A DNA stretch of 64,000 nt, from NCBI RefSeq assembly GCF_949769195.1, contig NZ_OX458333.1, forward strand, positions 2,046,001 to 2,110,000. Reading direction: 5' to 3'. Numbering within the stretch: position 1 is the first letter of the stretch; each line of letters begins with the position of its first letter. This DNA comes from Methylocaldum szegediense (GTDB taxonomy: Bacteria > Pseudomonadota > Gammaproteobacteria > Methylococcales > Methylococcaceae). The notes under the pieces are model-generated. The model saw only the letters and a program-made list of their open reading frames with translations, was not told the DNA's origin and ran no database searches. Below are positions 37,889-42,684 of this stretch, piece by piece. The translations under genes and the position numbers were made by a program.

Positions 37889-38440
37889 TTACTCCCTCAC
37901 CGGCCGCTTATCCAATTTCCGCTGCAAGGTCCTACGATGCATCCCGAGCGCCCTAGCGGCGGCGGAGATGTTGCCGCCGTGCTCGATCAGGACTTTTTGC
38001 AGGTGCTCCCATTCCAGGCGGCGGACGGAGAGGGGTTTTTCCTTGATTTCAACGGACACGTCGCCTTGGTCTTTGTGAAGCGCAGCGACGATCTCGTCGG
38101 CATCGGCGGGCTTGGTTAGGTATTGGATCGCCCCGAGCTTTATCGCTTCGACCGCCGTGGCGATGCTGGCATATCCGGTCAAGACGACGATTCGGGTGTT
38201 CGCGTCGAGACTGTGAAGGCGCTTGACCAAAACCAGCCCGGAATCGTGGCCGATGCGCAGATCGATCACCGCGTATTCGGGCACCAATTGCTCCGCCAAT
38301 GTGCCACCCGTTTCCAGGTCTTGAGCGGCGTGTACTTCGAACCCGCGCTTCTCGAGAGCTTGCTTTAAGACTCCGCAGAACGTGGGATCGTCGTCGACCA
38401 ATAACAAGGTGGGGCGGGGCGAGGATTTAGTGCTGTTCAT
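37889..38440 (-). CDS. regA: Redox response regulator RegA/PrrA family
   Basis: 183 residues: a receiver domain (LLLVDDDPTF; phosphorylation Asp in YAVIDLRIG, near residue 60; LTGYASIATAVEAIKLGA; Lys in YLTKPA) and a Fis-type DNA-binding helix-turn-helix at the end (GGNISAAARALGMHRRTLQRKL). The C-terminus matches RegA/PrrA/ActR, which control respiration, carbon and nitrogen genes in response to redox state. Its start overlaps the regB stop by four bases, so they are made together. GCGACA...TGTCAC boxes upstream of regB are candidate targets. Confidence 0.92.
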   Translation of the reverse strand: MNSTKSSPRPTLLLVDDDPTFCGVLKQALEKRGFEVHAAQDLETGGTLAEQLVPEYAVIDLRIGHDSGLVLVKRLHSLDANTRIVVLTGYASIATAVEAIKLGAIQYLTKPADADEIVAALHKDQGDVSVEIKEKPLSVRRLEWEHLQKVLIEHGGNISAAARALGMHRRTLQRKLDKRPVRE

Positions 38441-39786
38441 AGACCTTGATTCGGACGCAACAATGGTAGTTCGATACGGGTACAGGTGCCGCCTTCGGGG
38501 CGGGGCAGCATCTCTATTCGACCGCCCAGCCGCTCGATAGTGGCAAACGCCAAAAACAGCCCCACGCCTAGGCCATGTTCCTTGGTTGTGATTGGAGCCT
38601 TCCCGATGCGTTGCGAGAGCGTGGGAGCGATGCCGGGGCCCTGGTCCAAAACCTCCAAGGTAGCGCGTTCGAAACTCCAGCGGGCGCGAAGCTTTATTCC
38701 GCGCGGCGAGACATCGGCGGCATTGTTCAGGATGTTAACTAGGGCGTGGGTCAGAGTATCCTCGGCTAAGATGCATGGAGGCGGTGAAGGCCCTCTCCTT
38801 TCGTATTCCAATTCGGCATTGAGACGCTGCCTGCGCCAACTTTCCACCGTTTCATCCAGGTAGCTCGGCAACGGCTCGATCCGCCCCGATTCGGCACGAA
38901 TGGCTCCTGCCGACGCCGACATGACCGAAAGCGCTTTCTTGCAGCGGGCCACCTGCTCCCGCAGGATTTTCATTTTCTCCAACAGCTCCTTCTGCTTGGC
39001 GCCTTCACCTTCACATTCGCTTTCGATCTCATGAATCAGAATCGCCATGGTTCCGAGCGGGGTCCCCATCTCGTGAGCCGCTCCGGCCGCCAACGTTCCC
39101 AATGCCACGACCCGTTCGTTCCGCAGGGCTTGTTCTCGGGCTTCCGCCAAACGGCGTTCCCGTTCTCTGAGCGTTTTCGCCATTTCCACGACAAAATACG
39201 CCACAAGAACAGCGCTGAATACGAACCCGAACCACATCCCGAAGGCATGAAGTTCGATATCGTGGTCTTCCATCAGAGCCTGAACGGCGGGCGGGGCATC
39301 TCCATGCAAAGTTGCGGCTTGAATGTCGGGAAGCGGCTCATAAAAGCCGATCAGTATCGTATAGCAGCCGGACGTGAAGATCACCATGTACCAAGTGTAG
39401 AACTGGGGCAACACAGTAGCGGCGATGATCAGCGGAAGCAGGAAAAACCAAGCCATTGGATTGGTGGCCCCGCCCGTGAAATAGAGCACCGCAGTGATCG
39501 CCAGAACGTCGAACGAGAGTTGCAGGAACAACTCCATTTCGGCAACCGGACGCGGATTGCTGATCCTCAACCAAGTCCACCAGTTGAAAGCGCCCTGGAC
39601 CGTCATGATTCCCCAAAGCGGCACTTCCCTAAGCGGGATCTCAAGTCCGTAGACACTGATGAGAACAATCAGCGCTTGGCCCGCAATCATGAGATTGCGC
39701 AGGACGAACAGCCAGCGCAGATTTTGGCGGGCATCTGTTTCCGTATCCGCCGGAGTGGGAATGTTCATGAGCGGGTTTGAGTTCAT
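38437..39786 (-). CDS. regB: Redox sensor histidine kinase RegB/PrrB family
   Basis: 449 residues: about six membrane helices (35-180 and 185-205), with the ubiquinone-sensing pattern GGATNPMAWFFLLPL between helices (GGxxNPF type), then a coiled coil, the H-box GAAHEMGTPLGTM, and an ATPase domain (NILNNAADVSP, VLDQGPGI, GLGVGLFLAFATIERLGG). The redox-active Cys seen in RegB may correspond to VARCKKAL. Cognate of the adjacent RegA; inner membrane. A 15-base palindrome GCGACAATTTGTCAC lies 38 bases upstream, consistent with autoregulation. Confidence 0.92.
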   Translation of the reverse strand: MNSNPLMNIPTPADTETDARQNLRWLFVLRNLMIAGQALIVLISVYGLEIPLREVPLWGIMTVQGAFNWWTWLRISNPRPVAEMELFLQLSFDVLAITAVLYFTGGATNPMAWFFLLPLIIAATVLPQFYTWYMVIFTSGCYTILIGFYEPLPDIQAATLHGDAPPAVQALMEDHDIELHAFGMWFGFVFSAVLVAYFVVEMAKTLRERERRLAEAREQALRNERVVALGTLAAGAAHEMGTPLGTMAILIHEIESECEGEGAKQKELLEKMKILREQVARCKKALSVMSASAGAIRAESGRIEPLPSYLDETVESWRRQRLNAELEYERRGPSPPPCILAEDTLTHALVNILNNAADVSPRGIKLRARWSFERATLEVLDQGPGIAPTLSQRIGKAPITTKEHGLGVGLFLAFATIERLGGRIEMLPRPEGGTCTRIELPLLRPNQGL

Positions 39787-39823: not shown

Positions 39824-39867
39824 GCGACAATTTGTCACATTATTCGATAGCAAGCAGCTGCTAATAT
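39824..39867 (+). promoter_or_regulatory. Promoter of putative sRNA 1 with shared 18-bp box
   Basis: GCGACAATTTGTCACATT (39824-39841) is repeated exactly at 40023. Its end is 17 bases before an extended -10 (TGCTAATAT; hexamer 39862-39867). The palindromic box, GCGACA plus TGTCAC around three bases, is centred about 42 bases upstream of the predicted start, where an activator would touch polymerase. It also lies in the regB upstream region, so a single RegA-type site could serve both directions. Confidence 0.6.
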
Positions 39868-39873
39868 AAGATT

Positions 39874-39987
39874 GTGGCTTGGACGCTCAACGAACCGCGG
39901 ATCGCGGCAAACTGACGACCAGATGTTATCTGTGGCTGTGCGCTATAGCCTCCTCATAGGGCAGAAGATTTGAACTTCTGCCTTTTT
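39874..39987 (+). ncRNA. Putative small RNA 1, divergent from regB
   Basis: About 114 bases from the predicted start to a strong terminator (GGCAGAAG/CTTCTGCC stem at 39960-39982, then TTTTT). No open frame. CAGAT and ATCTG form a small hairpin, and CTAT and ATAG (39943-39959) flank a loop with CCTCCTC (39949-39955), the complement of a Shine-Dalgarno sequence. Such loops in known trans-acting sRNAs block ribosome sites. A sibling with the same plan follows 200 bases on. Existence of the RNA is inferred from promoter plus terminator. Confidence 0.6.
39960..39987 (+). terminator. Rho-independent terminator of putative sRNA 1
   Basis: GGCAGAAG (39960-39967), a seven-base loop, CTTCTGCC (39975-39982) and TTTTT. 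There is no protein gene on this strand upstream, which is what points to a noncoding RNA. Confidence 0.88.
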
Positions 39988-40022
39988 ATTGTTTCCTTCA
40001 ATCGTTCAACTCTTTTGTTTGC

Positions 40023-40067
40023 GCGACAATTTGTCACATTTCATGTACAAATTATCGTTGCTAGACT
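40023..40067 (+). promoter_or_regulatory. Promoter of putative sRNA 2 with shared 18-bp box
   Basis: An exact second copy of GCGACAATTTGTCACATT at 40023-40040, 18 bases before an extended -10 (TGCTAGACT; hexamer 40062-40067). Spacing differs from copy 1 by only one base. Sequence between the box and the -10 is not conserved, so the box and the -10 appear to be under selection. Confidence 0.6.
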
Positions 40068-40073
40068 GTATTT

Positions 40074-40173
40074 CAGGTCTAGGAGACGATCCTAGCCGAG
40101 ACCAGACGCACGCGTAGTGCTCACAATCCTCCTCTTGACGTGCAGGGAACTATTTCCCTGCACTTTTTCTTTT
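40074..40173 (+). ncRNA. Putative small RNA 2, sibling of RNA 1
   Basis: About 100 bases. A 5' hairpin CTAGGA-gacga-TCCTAG (40079-40095) is followed by a linker, then CAA and TTG flank a loop with CCTCCTC (40128-40134), then a terminator. The order box, extended -10, hairpin, CCTCCTC loop, terminator equals that of RNA 1, though most other bases differ. The pair recalls tandem sibling sRNAs of Neisseria that carry anti-Shine-Dalgarno loops. No open frame of note. Confidence 0.6.
40140..40173 (+). terminator. Rho-independent terminator of putative sRNA 2
   Basis: GTGCAGGGAA (40140-40149), loop CTAT, TTCCCTGCAC (40154-40163), then TTTTTCTTTT. It points on the plus strand; the convergent M48 gene on the minus strand would gain no U tract from it. 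Confidence 0.9.
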
Positions 40174-40187
40174 CCAATCGACTCCGA

Positions 40188-40967
40188 TCAACGACCGCAT
40201 TGAGGCGTTTTCCTTGCCGCCCGTGCACTCCGATACAGTTCCAAAGCTTTAGGCATGTGTTGTTTAAGATCCTGCGTGCGAGTTGCATGGGATGGATGGG
40301 TCGAAAGAAACTCCGCCGGCTGTCCGCCACCCGCTTGCTCCATATTGATCCACAGATCGATGCTCTGCTGGGGGTCGAAGCCTGCTTTGGCCATAAGCTC
40401 CAGTCCGACCAAGTCCGCCTCGCTTTCCTGCATCCGGCTATAGGGCATCAGTACCCCGTATTGGGCTCCCAACCCTAATGCGCCCATCATCAACTGGCCG
40501 GTCTGACTAGTAGGATTGGCGATGGCCTGGATGACATTCAGCCCTTGCTGTACCGCGATCTGCTGGGACGCCCGCTCGTTCGAGTGTCGTGAGAGCACAT
40601 GGGCAATCTCGTGGGCGATGACGGCCGCAAGCTGGTCTTGGTTTCGAGCGACGCGCAGTATGCCGCTATGTACGCCGATCTTGCCTCCGGGCAAAGCGAA
40701 AGCGTTGGGCGTTTCATCCTGAAAAACCACAATCTCCCATTGTCCCCCAACCTCGTTGACAAGAGCCCGGGCGACGCAAGTGACATACTGATTCGTTTGC
40801 GGATTTTGATCGATGGGCATTTGCTGTTTCATGTTAACGAAAGCCTGCGCGCCCATGGCAGCCATTTGATCTTCCGGCATCAACATGAACTGAGTGCGCC
40901 CCAGCGGCGAGGTTGCGCAGGCAGAAAGGACCAGCGCAAAAAAAACACACAAGAGACAATTTTTCAT
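40188..40967 (-). CDS. M48-family metalloprotease lipoprotein, BepA/LoiP-like
   Basis: 259 residues from the ATG at 40967. Signal peptide with lipobox LSAC (Cys17). The peptidase domain has the zinc motif HEIAH (AVIAHEIAHVLSRHSNER) and a third-ligand Glu in MQESEADLVGLELMAKAG, then STHPSHATR. BepA and LoiP, the nearest models, act in outer-membrane protein quality control; this protein ends after the peptidase domain with no TPR repeats, so LoiP is closer. Anchored in the periplasm, probably on the outer membrane. An upstream in-frame start is unlikely as it would mask the lipobox. Confidence 0.88.
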   Translation of the reverse strand: MKNCLLCVFFALVLSACATSPLGRTQFMLMPEDQMAAMGAQAFVNMKQQMPIDQNPQTNQYVTCVARALVNEVGGQWEIVVFQDETPNAFALPGGKIGVHSGILRVARNQDQLAAVIAHEIAHVLSRHSNERASQQIAVQQGLNVIQAIANPTSQTGQLMMGALGLGAQYGVLMPYSRMQESEADLVGLELMAKAGFDPQQSIDLWINMEQAGGGQPAEFLSTHPSHATRTQDLKQHMPKALELYRSARAARKTPQCGR

Positions 40968-41022
40968 GAAAGCTCGAAATTTTGTGAGGACGTGCGATGA
41001 TAGCCAAAGGGATCGCGCGGCA

Positions 41023-41685
41023 TCAATCATTGTCGAAAGCCGAAGATGTATCGAATCGTGCAGGGCAATCGACTCCAGTGCCCCCCAGGCCACAGTACCC
41101 ACCGGGATTCTTGGCTAGGTACTGCTGATGATAAGGCTCCGCATAGAAAAATTCAGCGGCATCGCGAATTTCAGTCGTAATTTGCCCGTAACCTTTTCGG
41201 TTCAGAGCTCTTTGGTAAGCATTGAGCGACGCGATGGCCAGACGTTTCTGGTTCAGCGTGTAAGCAAAAATCATCGAACGGTACTGTGTGCCGATGTCGT
41301 TGCCCTGGCGCATTCCTTGTGTAGGATCGTGAGACTCCCAGAAGGTTTTCAGCAATTCTTCGTAGCTGACTTTATCCGGTTCGTACACAACGCGAACCAC
41401 CTCGGCGTGGCCGGTCATCCCGCTGCAGACTTCCTCGTAAGTGGGATTAGGCGTCACGCCGCCAGCATAACCCACCGCCGTCACGTAGACGCCAGGAATC
41501 TGCCAGAATTTCCGCTCCGCGCCCCAGAAGCAACCGAGGCCGAAGACCGCGATTTCCGAACCGTCCGGATAAGGAGGCTCCATTCGATGTCCGTTTACAA
41601 AGTGAAATTCCGGTACCGGCATTTTCTCGAGGCGGCCCGGAAGTGCGAACCCGGGGTCAGGCAACGAAAGCTTTTTCATAGACAT
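41023..41685 (-). CDS. msrA: Peptide methionine sulfoxide reductase A
   Basis: A 220-residue enzyme that repairs Met-S-sulfoxide. Catalytic Cys in [14 protein letters not shown] (near residue 52), then [25 protein letters not shown] and the family region [22 protein letters not shown]-terminal resolving Cys pair in [14 protein letters not shown]. Length is at the long end of the family owing to about 40 N-terminal residues. Cytosolic, with no clear signal peptide. Thioredoxin-dependent in the family. It lies 56 bases upstream of the lipoprotein protease on the same strand and may be cotranscribed. Confidence 0.93.
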
Positions 41686-41814
41686 GGCACTTACTCTCGG
41701 GGTGGTCCGTAAATCAGAAGCCGCGTGAATAGCACCGGCTGAATTTCGGTAGACTAACGATTTTTACCTATTAAAACGGTAAAGTAACATCCGTTAAAAC
41801 CTTTTGCTTCGACG

Positions 41815-42684
41815 ATGAGCGATTTTGACAGTTTCCAGCGGTTCTTGTTTGAAGATCTCGGTATACGGGGCGAACTGGTGCGGCTAGATTCAAGCTGGCA
41901 AGCCGTACTCGAGCGTCATTCCTATCCCCCGGCCGTTTCGAGTCAGTTGGGGCAGGCTCTTGCTGCCGTTCTCTTGCTCTCCGCCACCATAAAATTCCGA
42001 GGGTCCTTGATTCTTCAGGCTCAAGCCCGCGGCCCATTACACACCCTGGTAGCACAGGCCACGCATCAGAGGACCATTCGAGGACTCGCGCACTGGAATG
42101 GAGAGGTCACTGGAGAGACCCTGTCCGATATCTACGGTCCCGGACATTTGGTGTTAACGGTGCGGAATGACGATTCCGAGCCATATCAAGGAATCGTTGC
42201 CCTTGAGGGAGACGATCTGGCCGGGGCTATTCAAACCTATTTTTCACGTTCGGAACAACTCGCGACCCGGCTTTGGCTGACAGCTGACGAACAGCGCGCC
42301 GCCGGCTTGCTCATCCAGGAACTACCCACGCAAGCCCGCGATCGCGACGACTGGGCGCGCGTCGAATTTTTGGCCGACACGATTACCCCGGCGGAGCTGT
42401 TGCATCTGCCCGGTCAGGAACTGTTGTATCGGCTATTCAATGAAGAGAGGGTTCGCCTCTTCGATTCCGAGCCCGTTGCGTTTCGATGCGGCTGTTCGCG
42501 GGAACGCATCGAATCCGTCTTGCTGGCCATGGGGAATCAAGAGGTCGAGTCCATTTTGGAGAAAGAGGATTCGGTGGAAGTTTTCTGTGAATTCTGCAAT
42601 CGCCGTTATCTTTTCGACCGCGTCGATATCGGCGGTCTATTTGCCGATCAAATAAAACTCCCTCCTTCAACAACTCGACAATGA
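41815..42684 (+). CDS. hslO: Redox-regulated chaperone Hsp33
   Basis: 289 residues matching Hsp33. The C-terminal zinc centre has CGC (FRCGCSRERIESVL) and CEFC (VFCEFCNRRYLF), which form disulfides on oxidation and switch on the chaperone. N-terminal substrate domain: FRGSLILQAQARGPLHTLVA. Cytosolic. Lies near msrA and the oxidase genes; like them it deals with oxidants, but it is transcribed the other way. A shared terminator hairpin separates it from coxC. Confidence 0.94.
   Translation: MSDFDSFQRFLFEDLGIRGELVRLDSSWQAVLERHSYPPAVSSQLGQALAAVLLLSATIKFRGSLILQAQARGPLHTLVAQATHQRTIRGLAHWNGEVTGETLSDIYGPGHLVLTVRNDDSEPYQGIVALEGDDLAGAIQTYFSRSEQLATRLWLTADEQRAAGLLIQELPTQARDRDDWARVEFLADTITPAELLHLPGQELLYRLFNEERVRLFDSEPVAFRCGCSRERIESVLLAMGNQEVESILEKEDSVEVFCEFCNRRYLFDRVDIGGLFADQIKLPPSTTRQ

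Follow-up and report, generated by a model that had tools for sequence, protein, structure and literature searches.

Does the gap between regB and an M48 peptidase gene of Methylocaldum szegediense carry two sibling small RNA genes, and would these belong to the RegB/RegA redox system next to which they lie? The locus was analysed within a window of 64,000 nt (NZ_OX458333.1, positions 2,046,001-2,110,000 of the forward strand; assembly GCF_949769195.1). The gap is 401 bp long, both genes that border it are on the minus strand, and it contains, on the plus strand, two units that each comprise a box, an extended -10, a predicted RNA, a CCTCCTC motif and a terminator. This observation was confirmed, and the features are as follows.

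37889-38440, minus strand: regA, response regulator with a Fis-type HTH; ActR/PrrA/RegA is its best NCBIfam match (190 bits, cut-off 250)
38437-39786, minus strand: regB, a redox sensor kinase; ActS/PrrB/RegB is its best NCBIfam match (235 bits, model cut-off 350)
39824-39841, plus strand: box 1, GCGACAATTTGTCACATT, a near-palindrome; proposed RegA operator of RNA 1
39859-39867, plus strand: extended -10 of RNA 1, TGCTAATAT, at a position kept across sites
39874-39987, plus strand: predicted RNA 1 (type A), its start placed from the -10 and its 3' end set at the T run
39949-39955, plus strand: anti-Shine-Dalgarno motif (CCTCCTC) of RNA 1, which the predicted fold leaves unpaired
39958-39987, plus strand: intrinsic terminator of RNA 1, 10-bp stem (39958-39984) and T run
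40023-40040, plus strand: box 2, matching box 1 at all 18 positions; likewise a proposed RegA operator, of RNA 2
40059-40067, plus strand: extended -10 of RNA 2, TGCTAGACT, at a position kept across sites
40074-40168, plus strand: predicted RNA 2 (type B, the commoner type), with hairpin 1, hairpin 2, single-stranded CCUCCUCUU and terminator
40079-40095, plus strand: hairpin 1 of RNA 2 (CTAGGA/TCCTAG), from the fold
40108-40120, plus strand: hairpin 2 of RNA 2 (GCAC/GTGC), which covaries
40128-40134, plus strand: anti-Shine-Dalgarno motif (CCTCCTC) of RNA 2, which the centroid fold leaves unpaired
40140-40168, plus strand: intrinsic terminator of RNA 2, 10-bp stem (40140-40163) and T run; the stem covaries
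40188-41102, minus strand: M48 peptidase gene, across the gap from regB

The best NCBIfam models for regB and regA were those of RegB and RegA, with both scores below the model cut-offs, and the RegB of the window shared 93% identity with its Methylocaldum sp. 14B counterpart (L033). The M48 peptidase, MsrA and Hsp33 genes (40188-42684) place regBA in a redox and protein-repair neighbourhood.

The original prediction described two units about 200 bp apart with the same 18-bp box and an extended -10, and direct reading bore this out: the boxes are identical at 18 of 18 positions and 199 bp apart, and the -10 hexamer starts 21 or 22 nt past the box end. An exact search of the 4.9-Mb genome found boxes 1 and 2 and no further exact copy. 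Strong rho-independent terminators had likewise been described, and two were found in 600 nt against a mean of 0.6 in shuffled sequences. Both predicted RNAs folded more stably than their shuffled counterparts (z of -2.65 and -4.27). The units point away from regB and toward a gene on the opposite strand; with no plausible gene downstream on their own strand, they are free-standing and not leaders. CCTCCTC had been assigned to a loop immediately before the terminator. Its position before the terminator held, but the loop did not: in the predicted folds the motif is single-stranded and links hairpin 2 to the terminator. A weak 3-bp stem touches CCUCCUC in the minimum-energy fold of unit 2; the centroid fold leaves it free. 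The bases that flank the motif differ between the siblings (AGCCUCCUCAU versus AAUCCUCCUCUUGA). CCTCCTC by itself was not rarer than chance in the window (8 copies against a shuffled mean of 7.4), and its weight rests on its location before each terminator and on its conservation.

Conservation was followed in a set of genomes whose family and genus labels (f1-f8 and genus numbers) are arbitrary; the family of M. szegediense is f1, f8 is presumably Methylomonadaceae, and f6 is, at a guess, Cycloclasticaceae. Counts across these related genomes are non-independent. Within f1, regB was found in 35 of 38 genomes and 30 regB loci were fetched, among which a full unit lay upstream of regB in 21, a box alone in two and neither in six, while one was cut by a contig end. 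Of 24 units, 21 had 84-94 nt between the box end and the anti-Shine-Dalgarno motif; in the other three, the type A units of Methylocaldum, the distance was 107-111 nt. Duplicates (L001 and L033-L039), L029, which is cut by a contig end, and L041 were excluded before the spacing count, in which six sites without a recognised terminator were entered as failures. Four of the six loci with neither feature belonged to one genus, g13, whose genomes have box-led short units elsewhere (L146, L148, L149 and L150); such units away from regB were also present in G003 and G037 (L127 and L152). Three of the g13 units (L148, L149 and L150) have GTTCTCTTCAA instead and lack CCTCC, a further change of the CU-rich stretch. 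In G002, a box-led unit lies beside an M48 gene (L045/L126) on a contig other than that of regB, and regB retains a box of its own. Across the family, a 15-mer form of the box occurred at 54 places in 28 of the 38 genomes, compared with one match of the reversed pattern.

Beyond the family, the exact box GCGACAATWTGYCRCATT was present in 155 of 201 Methylococcales genomes, in at most four copies per genome, and the reversed pattern in none. The box followed after 80-100 nt by CCTCC was found at 35 places in 28 of 151 genomes of the order (reversed control, 0). A unit stood upstream of regB in 14 of 30 loci of other families, and no unit adjoined regB in 15 of these 30 non-f1 loci. Tandem pairs recurred beside regB in f5, beside msrA in f3, and at L063, and L096 and L101 have two boxes each. 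We also built a covariance model (R1) of the RNA core, from hairpin 2 to the terminator and thus without the promoter. The model and its alignment (A6) came from 19 of 41 cores, and a seed alignment (A3) from 19 of 24 units. R1 matched 35 of the 201 genomes of the order at E<=0.01. Of seven weaker loci that were read (L095-L101), six (L095, L096, L097, L098, L100 and L101) had a box with at most two mismatches that lies 75-80 nt before the core. Among these six, L095 and L097 had previously been found via the box pattern; the box was absent at L099. Over 369 genomes of the class, strong matches were confined to the genome studied here and one other family member, with nothing credible outside the order, in a search whose filters, those for sets of more than 40 genomes, lose some weak matches. 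One class-level match, L124 (E=0.00256), was taken as chance, the 15-mer box being absent there.

In the shared fold of the 19 core sequences (type B), 95.1% of cells were paired, seven of 14 pairs showed changes on both sides, and the covariation score was 0.423 compared with 0.154 after shuffling. The sequence of hairpin 1 varies among relatives, and a 5' hairpin was predicted in every relative folded. In the conservation test set beforehand, box, CCTCCTC and terminators were kept in most of the family loci read and also beyond the family; other families have tandem pairs as well, and the stems covary. The interpretation of the two units as sibling RNAs is thus supported at the level of sequence comparison.

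Four forms of the RNA could be distinguished. Type B, to which unit 2 belongs, is the widespread one (f1, f3 and f5), and type A, that of unit 1, was seen in three Methylocaldum genomes and, tentatively, as a single copy at L007/L008. A third type beside regB in f8 has a long hairpin, UAUAUYCUUCCUAA and a GGCGGUUU terminator, UYCUUCCUAA standing where CCUCCUC would be, and a fourth, elsewhere in f8 genomes, carries CCUCCUC in the loop of a small hairpin. Given the f8 variant and the divergent g13 units, the strict anti-Shine-Dalgarno motif is not universal; promoter and general plan are constant and the body of the RNA is variable.

How regularly the box leads into such an RNA was judged from what follows it. 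A broader set of 120 sites (terminator at 98, in the opposite direction at 10, at random at 181 of 1940; CCTCC in 57 of the 98) includes loci found by the CCTCC pattern or by regB and is therefore biased, so we relied on a box-only sample in which CCTCC was not required and for which 14 f6 loci and 40 f8 stretches were read. A terminator lay 70-215 nt past the box at 39 of 42 f8 sites, hand-picked among the box matches listed, compared with five in the opposite direction and 50 of 649 at random. The 39 f8 transcripts contained CCTCC in 17 cases (2.5 in shuffled sequences) and CCTCC or CTTCC in 31 (5.6 in shuffled sequences). At the f6 sites, a terminator followed 7 of 17 boxes (opposite direction, 3; random, 14 of 268), CCTCC after the box was at chance level, and nine of the 17 led within 46-84 nt into a reading frame of 472-484 amino acids, so that the same box seemingly controls mRNAs there too. 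Most of these nine frames (L255, L256, L257, L259, L260, L261, L263, L264 and L265) begin like signal peptides. Box and small RNA are thus strongly linked in f1 and f8, whereas in f6, where protein genes are served by the box as well, the link is weak.

The box reads GCGAC-N5-GTCRC followed by ATT and fits the inverted repeat proposed for RegA/PrrA; RegA is its likely regulator. In keeping with this, the exact box was present in 52 of 64 regB-positive genomes and in none of four regB-negative ones (G007, G032, G035 and G043, of which G032 and G035 are incomplete). Box 1 begins 38 nt from the start codon of regB and so may serve regB too. In six Methylococcus loci (L022-L027), each with one unit, a further and weaker box, GCGGCAATTTGCCAC, lies 30-33 nt before regB, which suggests autoregulation of regB in that genus. 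Over the whole M. szegediense genome, 22 sites matched the box with up to three mismatches compared with eight in the reversed control, so weak box sites are mostly noise. Some 110 nt ahead of pmoC (AmoC by Pfam), both pmoCAB operons also have a box-like site with two mismatches (L105 and L106, 1501-1518, corresponding to C1:3178702-3178719 and 4369527-4369544, minus strand); in each operon the site lies just downstream of a TTGACA/TAGACT-like promoter, placed as a repressor site might be.

Taken together, we consider it probable that the locus holds two paralogous trans-acting small RNA genes that are activated by RegA and act against Shine-Dalgarno sequences, as a post-transcriptional arm of RegB/RegA, and that they belong to an undescribed family within the Methylococcales. 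Each gene would have its own promoter and terminator. RegB would relay the reduced state of the quinone pool to RegA, and phosphorylated RegA would bind the GCGAC-N5-GTCRC box. The box covers the -35 position in part, and about 20 nt separate its end from the -10 hexamer, a placement expected of an activator site. A transcript of about 95-115 nt, ending at the intrinsic terminator, is predicted to be made. Its CCUCCUC would then pair with strong Shine-Dalgarno sequences and block ribosome binding on a set of mRNAs, with the flanking bases conferring target selectivity; since these flanks differ between the siblings, their targets would probably be overlapping but distinct.

Which mRNAs these might be was approached by target prediction with CCTCCTC, as had been suggested; complementarity to Shine-Dalgarno sequences was found, but a clear single target was not. 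The conserved unpaired CU-rich stretch is complementary to many Shine-Dalgarno sequences, and the best predicted duplexes among 52 genes of the window reached -20.1 (unit 2) and -22.7 kcal/mol (unit 1), so that no target stood out clearly. The pmoB genes (Monooxygenase_B by Pfam) of G004 and G020 contain AAAGAGGAGGA, which could pair over 10-11 nt with CCUCCUCUUU in the RNAs of the same genomes and at first suggested coevolution; this complement was present in two genera and absent from the M. szegediense genome. Coevolution of RNA and pmoB was not supported: within families, shuffling the pairs gave energies as low as or lower than those of a genome's own pairs in 1734 (f1), 1637 (f5) and 837 (f8) of 5000 permutations each. 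When all 19 genomes were pooled, 2 of 5000 permutations were as low, in what is a comparison between families and confounded by descent. The best single RNA-pmoB duplex was that of G041 (-29.2 kcal/mol).

In the M. szegediense genome, four genes carry AAGAGGAGG before the ATG (L164, L171, L178 and L185). L171 encodes an H+-pyrophosphatase, the products of L164, L178 and L185 had no Pfam match, and one product of the four is a 139-amino-acid protein with neither a Pfam nor an NCBIfam match. A similar site precedes a related protein in G005 (L183) for L164 and in G006 (L163) for L178; for L171 and L185 a similar site is present in G005 and G006, by comparison of the sites only. Duplex energies did not separate these four genes from the best of the 52 background genes, except for unit 1 with L164 (-25.1), although the background energies are the best of several start codons per gene and so favour the background. 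In G005, AAGAGGAGGAGATGGCGATG occurs 31 times, and the four copies read (L162, L169, L176 and L190) precede the same 98-amino-acid frame; these copies are probably a multi-copy mobile element.

The small RNAs could be real and yet answer to a regulator other than RegA, their adjacency to regBA being only partly functional. We consider this rather unlikely, although several observations lean its way. The right half of the box resembles a CRP half site; units lie away from regB in g13 and f8; and the exact box is missing in 2 of 29 regB genomes outside f1 and in 10 of 35 within it, several of which have variants. The box is also far more invariant than known RegA, PrrA and RegR sites: ChIP-seq of PrrA in R. 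sphaeroides did not yield a strong consensus, whereas the methanotroph box is nearly invariant, and putative RegR sites in Bradyrhizobium are similarly loose in the part of that report covered here (PMC4064962). Against a foreign regulator stand the near-palindrome with its GCGAC/GTCRC half sites, as proposed for RegA, the absence of the exact box from the four regB-negative genomes, and a copy of the box (up to five mismatches) that 18 of 30 f1 loci have at a distance of 30-41 nt from regB, including loci where a second box drives the RNA.

Other readings keep the RNAs and change what they do, or deny that they are regulatory. CCUCCUC matches the anti-Shine-Dalgarno core of 16S rRNA and alone confers little target selectivity, so the RNAs might pair with no mRNA and instead titrate ribosome-associated factors or an RNA-binding protein, or mimic the 3' end of 16S rRNA. 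This seems improbable: the UYCUUCCUAA of f8 is a poorer rRNA mimic, although still CU-rich, and the GGA motifs of a CsrA sponge (RsmY/RsmZ-like) are not conserved, with 0-4 per unit and 10 of 24 units lacking any. It is a far more remote prospect that the units encode no regulatory RNAs and are instead terminator-like relics, tiny-peptide genes or a leader antisense to regB. Frames of at least 12 codons do occur in 14 of 24 units, with similar ones in close relatives such as six Methylococcus units, but the other 10 units lack one and no frame was seen by eye to be common to the whole set; predicted transcription heads away from regB and toward the opposite-strand gene; and covariation, fixed spacing and recurrent tandem copies also speak against this reading.

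Returning to RegA-activated, anti-Shine-Dalgarno RNAs, a wider proposal may be made tentatively. The box could be chiefly a small RNA operator in the methanotrophic Methylococcales, and RegA could act there largely through a family of CU-rich anti-Shine-Dalgarno RNAs that duplicates and diversifies and that tunes the translation of C1-oxidation and respiratory proteins to the quinone pool. These RNAs would then be the missing intermediary in the indirect RegA regulation of Methylomonas sp. DH-1, and pmoB and the H+-pyrophosphatase would be weak target candidates. Methane oxidation, respiration and biosynthesis compete for the electrons of a methanotroph, which has to keep them in balance, and, if the proposal is true, an undescribed RNA arm tunes protein production to redox state in such bacteria. 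For Methylomonas sp. DH-1, the part of a 2026 study covered here (PMC13274454) reports that RegB/RegA is important for this balance, that RegA binds the feo promoter and that its effects on tbdr and tonB look indirect, with unknown intermediaries; the terms 'sRNA' and 'small RNA' are absent from its main text. A small RNA family at a nearly invariant site, often beside regBA, is a concrete candidate for such indirect effects. The sequence from one copy to tandem siblings to changed seeds under a constant promoter would also offer a natural series for the study of small RNA duplication and target change.

That no described RNA of this type was known had also been stated at the outset, and it agreed with our searches: Rfam gave no match at gathering level over the window, and no account of such RNAs in Methylococcales was found in the open-access literature searched. 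A permissive search of the region (E<=5) returned ncS16 (E=0.0079), HrrF, snR67, Clostridiales-2 and STnc380, and one of 16 relatives (E<=1) returned SorX (E=0.086) and a tRNA, with SorX and all the region matches below cut-off. The Betaproteobacteria toxic small RNA (RF02278) was absent from the region matches up to E=5. The match of unit 2 to ncS16 (RF02866; 25.1 bits against a gathering value of 48) was dropped; of the 38 family genomes, 15 gave some match at E<=1, in every case below cut-off, and the matches fell on the units in G000 and G006 alone, the latter of the same genus as the genome studied here. Like the units, ncS16 of Burkholderia has a linker, CUCCUCUUG, before its terminator; unlike them, it is located in the 3' UTR of ompA according to the part of its description covered here (PMC5688073).

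The units have what is expected, by sequence, of trans-acting anti-Shine-Dalgarno small RNAs, namely their own promoter, a terminator and a conserved unpaired CU-rich stretch. The family of alpha-r14 and the cuckoo RNAs is in Rfam; it gave no gathering-level match in the window and was not among the matches of the region (E<=5) or of the 16 relatives (E<=1). In the portion of the literature covered here, alpha-r14, NfeR1 and the cuckoo RNAs are likewise short, with an unpaired CCUCC anti-Shine-Dalgarno motif that is kept while the stems differ (PMC10746234), and the CcsR1-4 RNAs of Rhodobacter are four copies (PMC10253847). As described there, alpha-r14 has three hairpins that each carry CCUCCUCCC, whereas the units here have one CCUCCUC, in a linker, and the three-hairpin plan was found neither in units 1 and 2 nor in the folded relatives, so that by these tests the units are not members. 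The CcsR RNAs share, in the same sources, an operon with a DUF1127 gene that is transcribed from an RpoHI/RpoHII promoter; in M. szegediense, box and promoter are separate for each copy, and the host, unlike that of alpha-r14 and CcsR, is gammaproteobacterial. PcrZ of Rhodobacter sphaeroides is a close parallel in regulation, a small RNA controlled by PrrA, the orthologue of RegA, and reported to have a PrrA consensus site in its promoter, much as RegA would control the RNAs here; it differs in being alphaproteobacterial with photosynthesis targets. No PcrZ-type family was among the Rfam matches of the window, the region or the 16 relatives. The combination found at this locus, with a nearly invariant operator before changing RNA bodies, is new to us; its kind is known from PcrZ and from alpha-r14 and CcsR.
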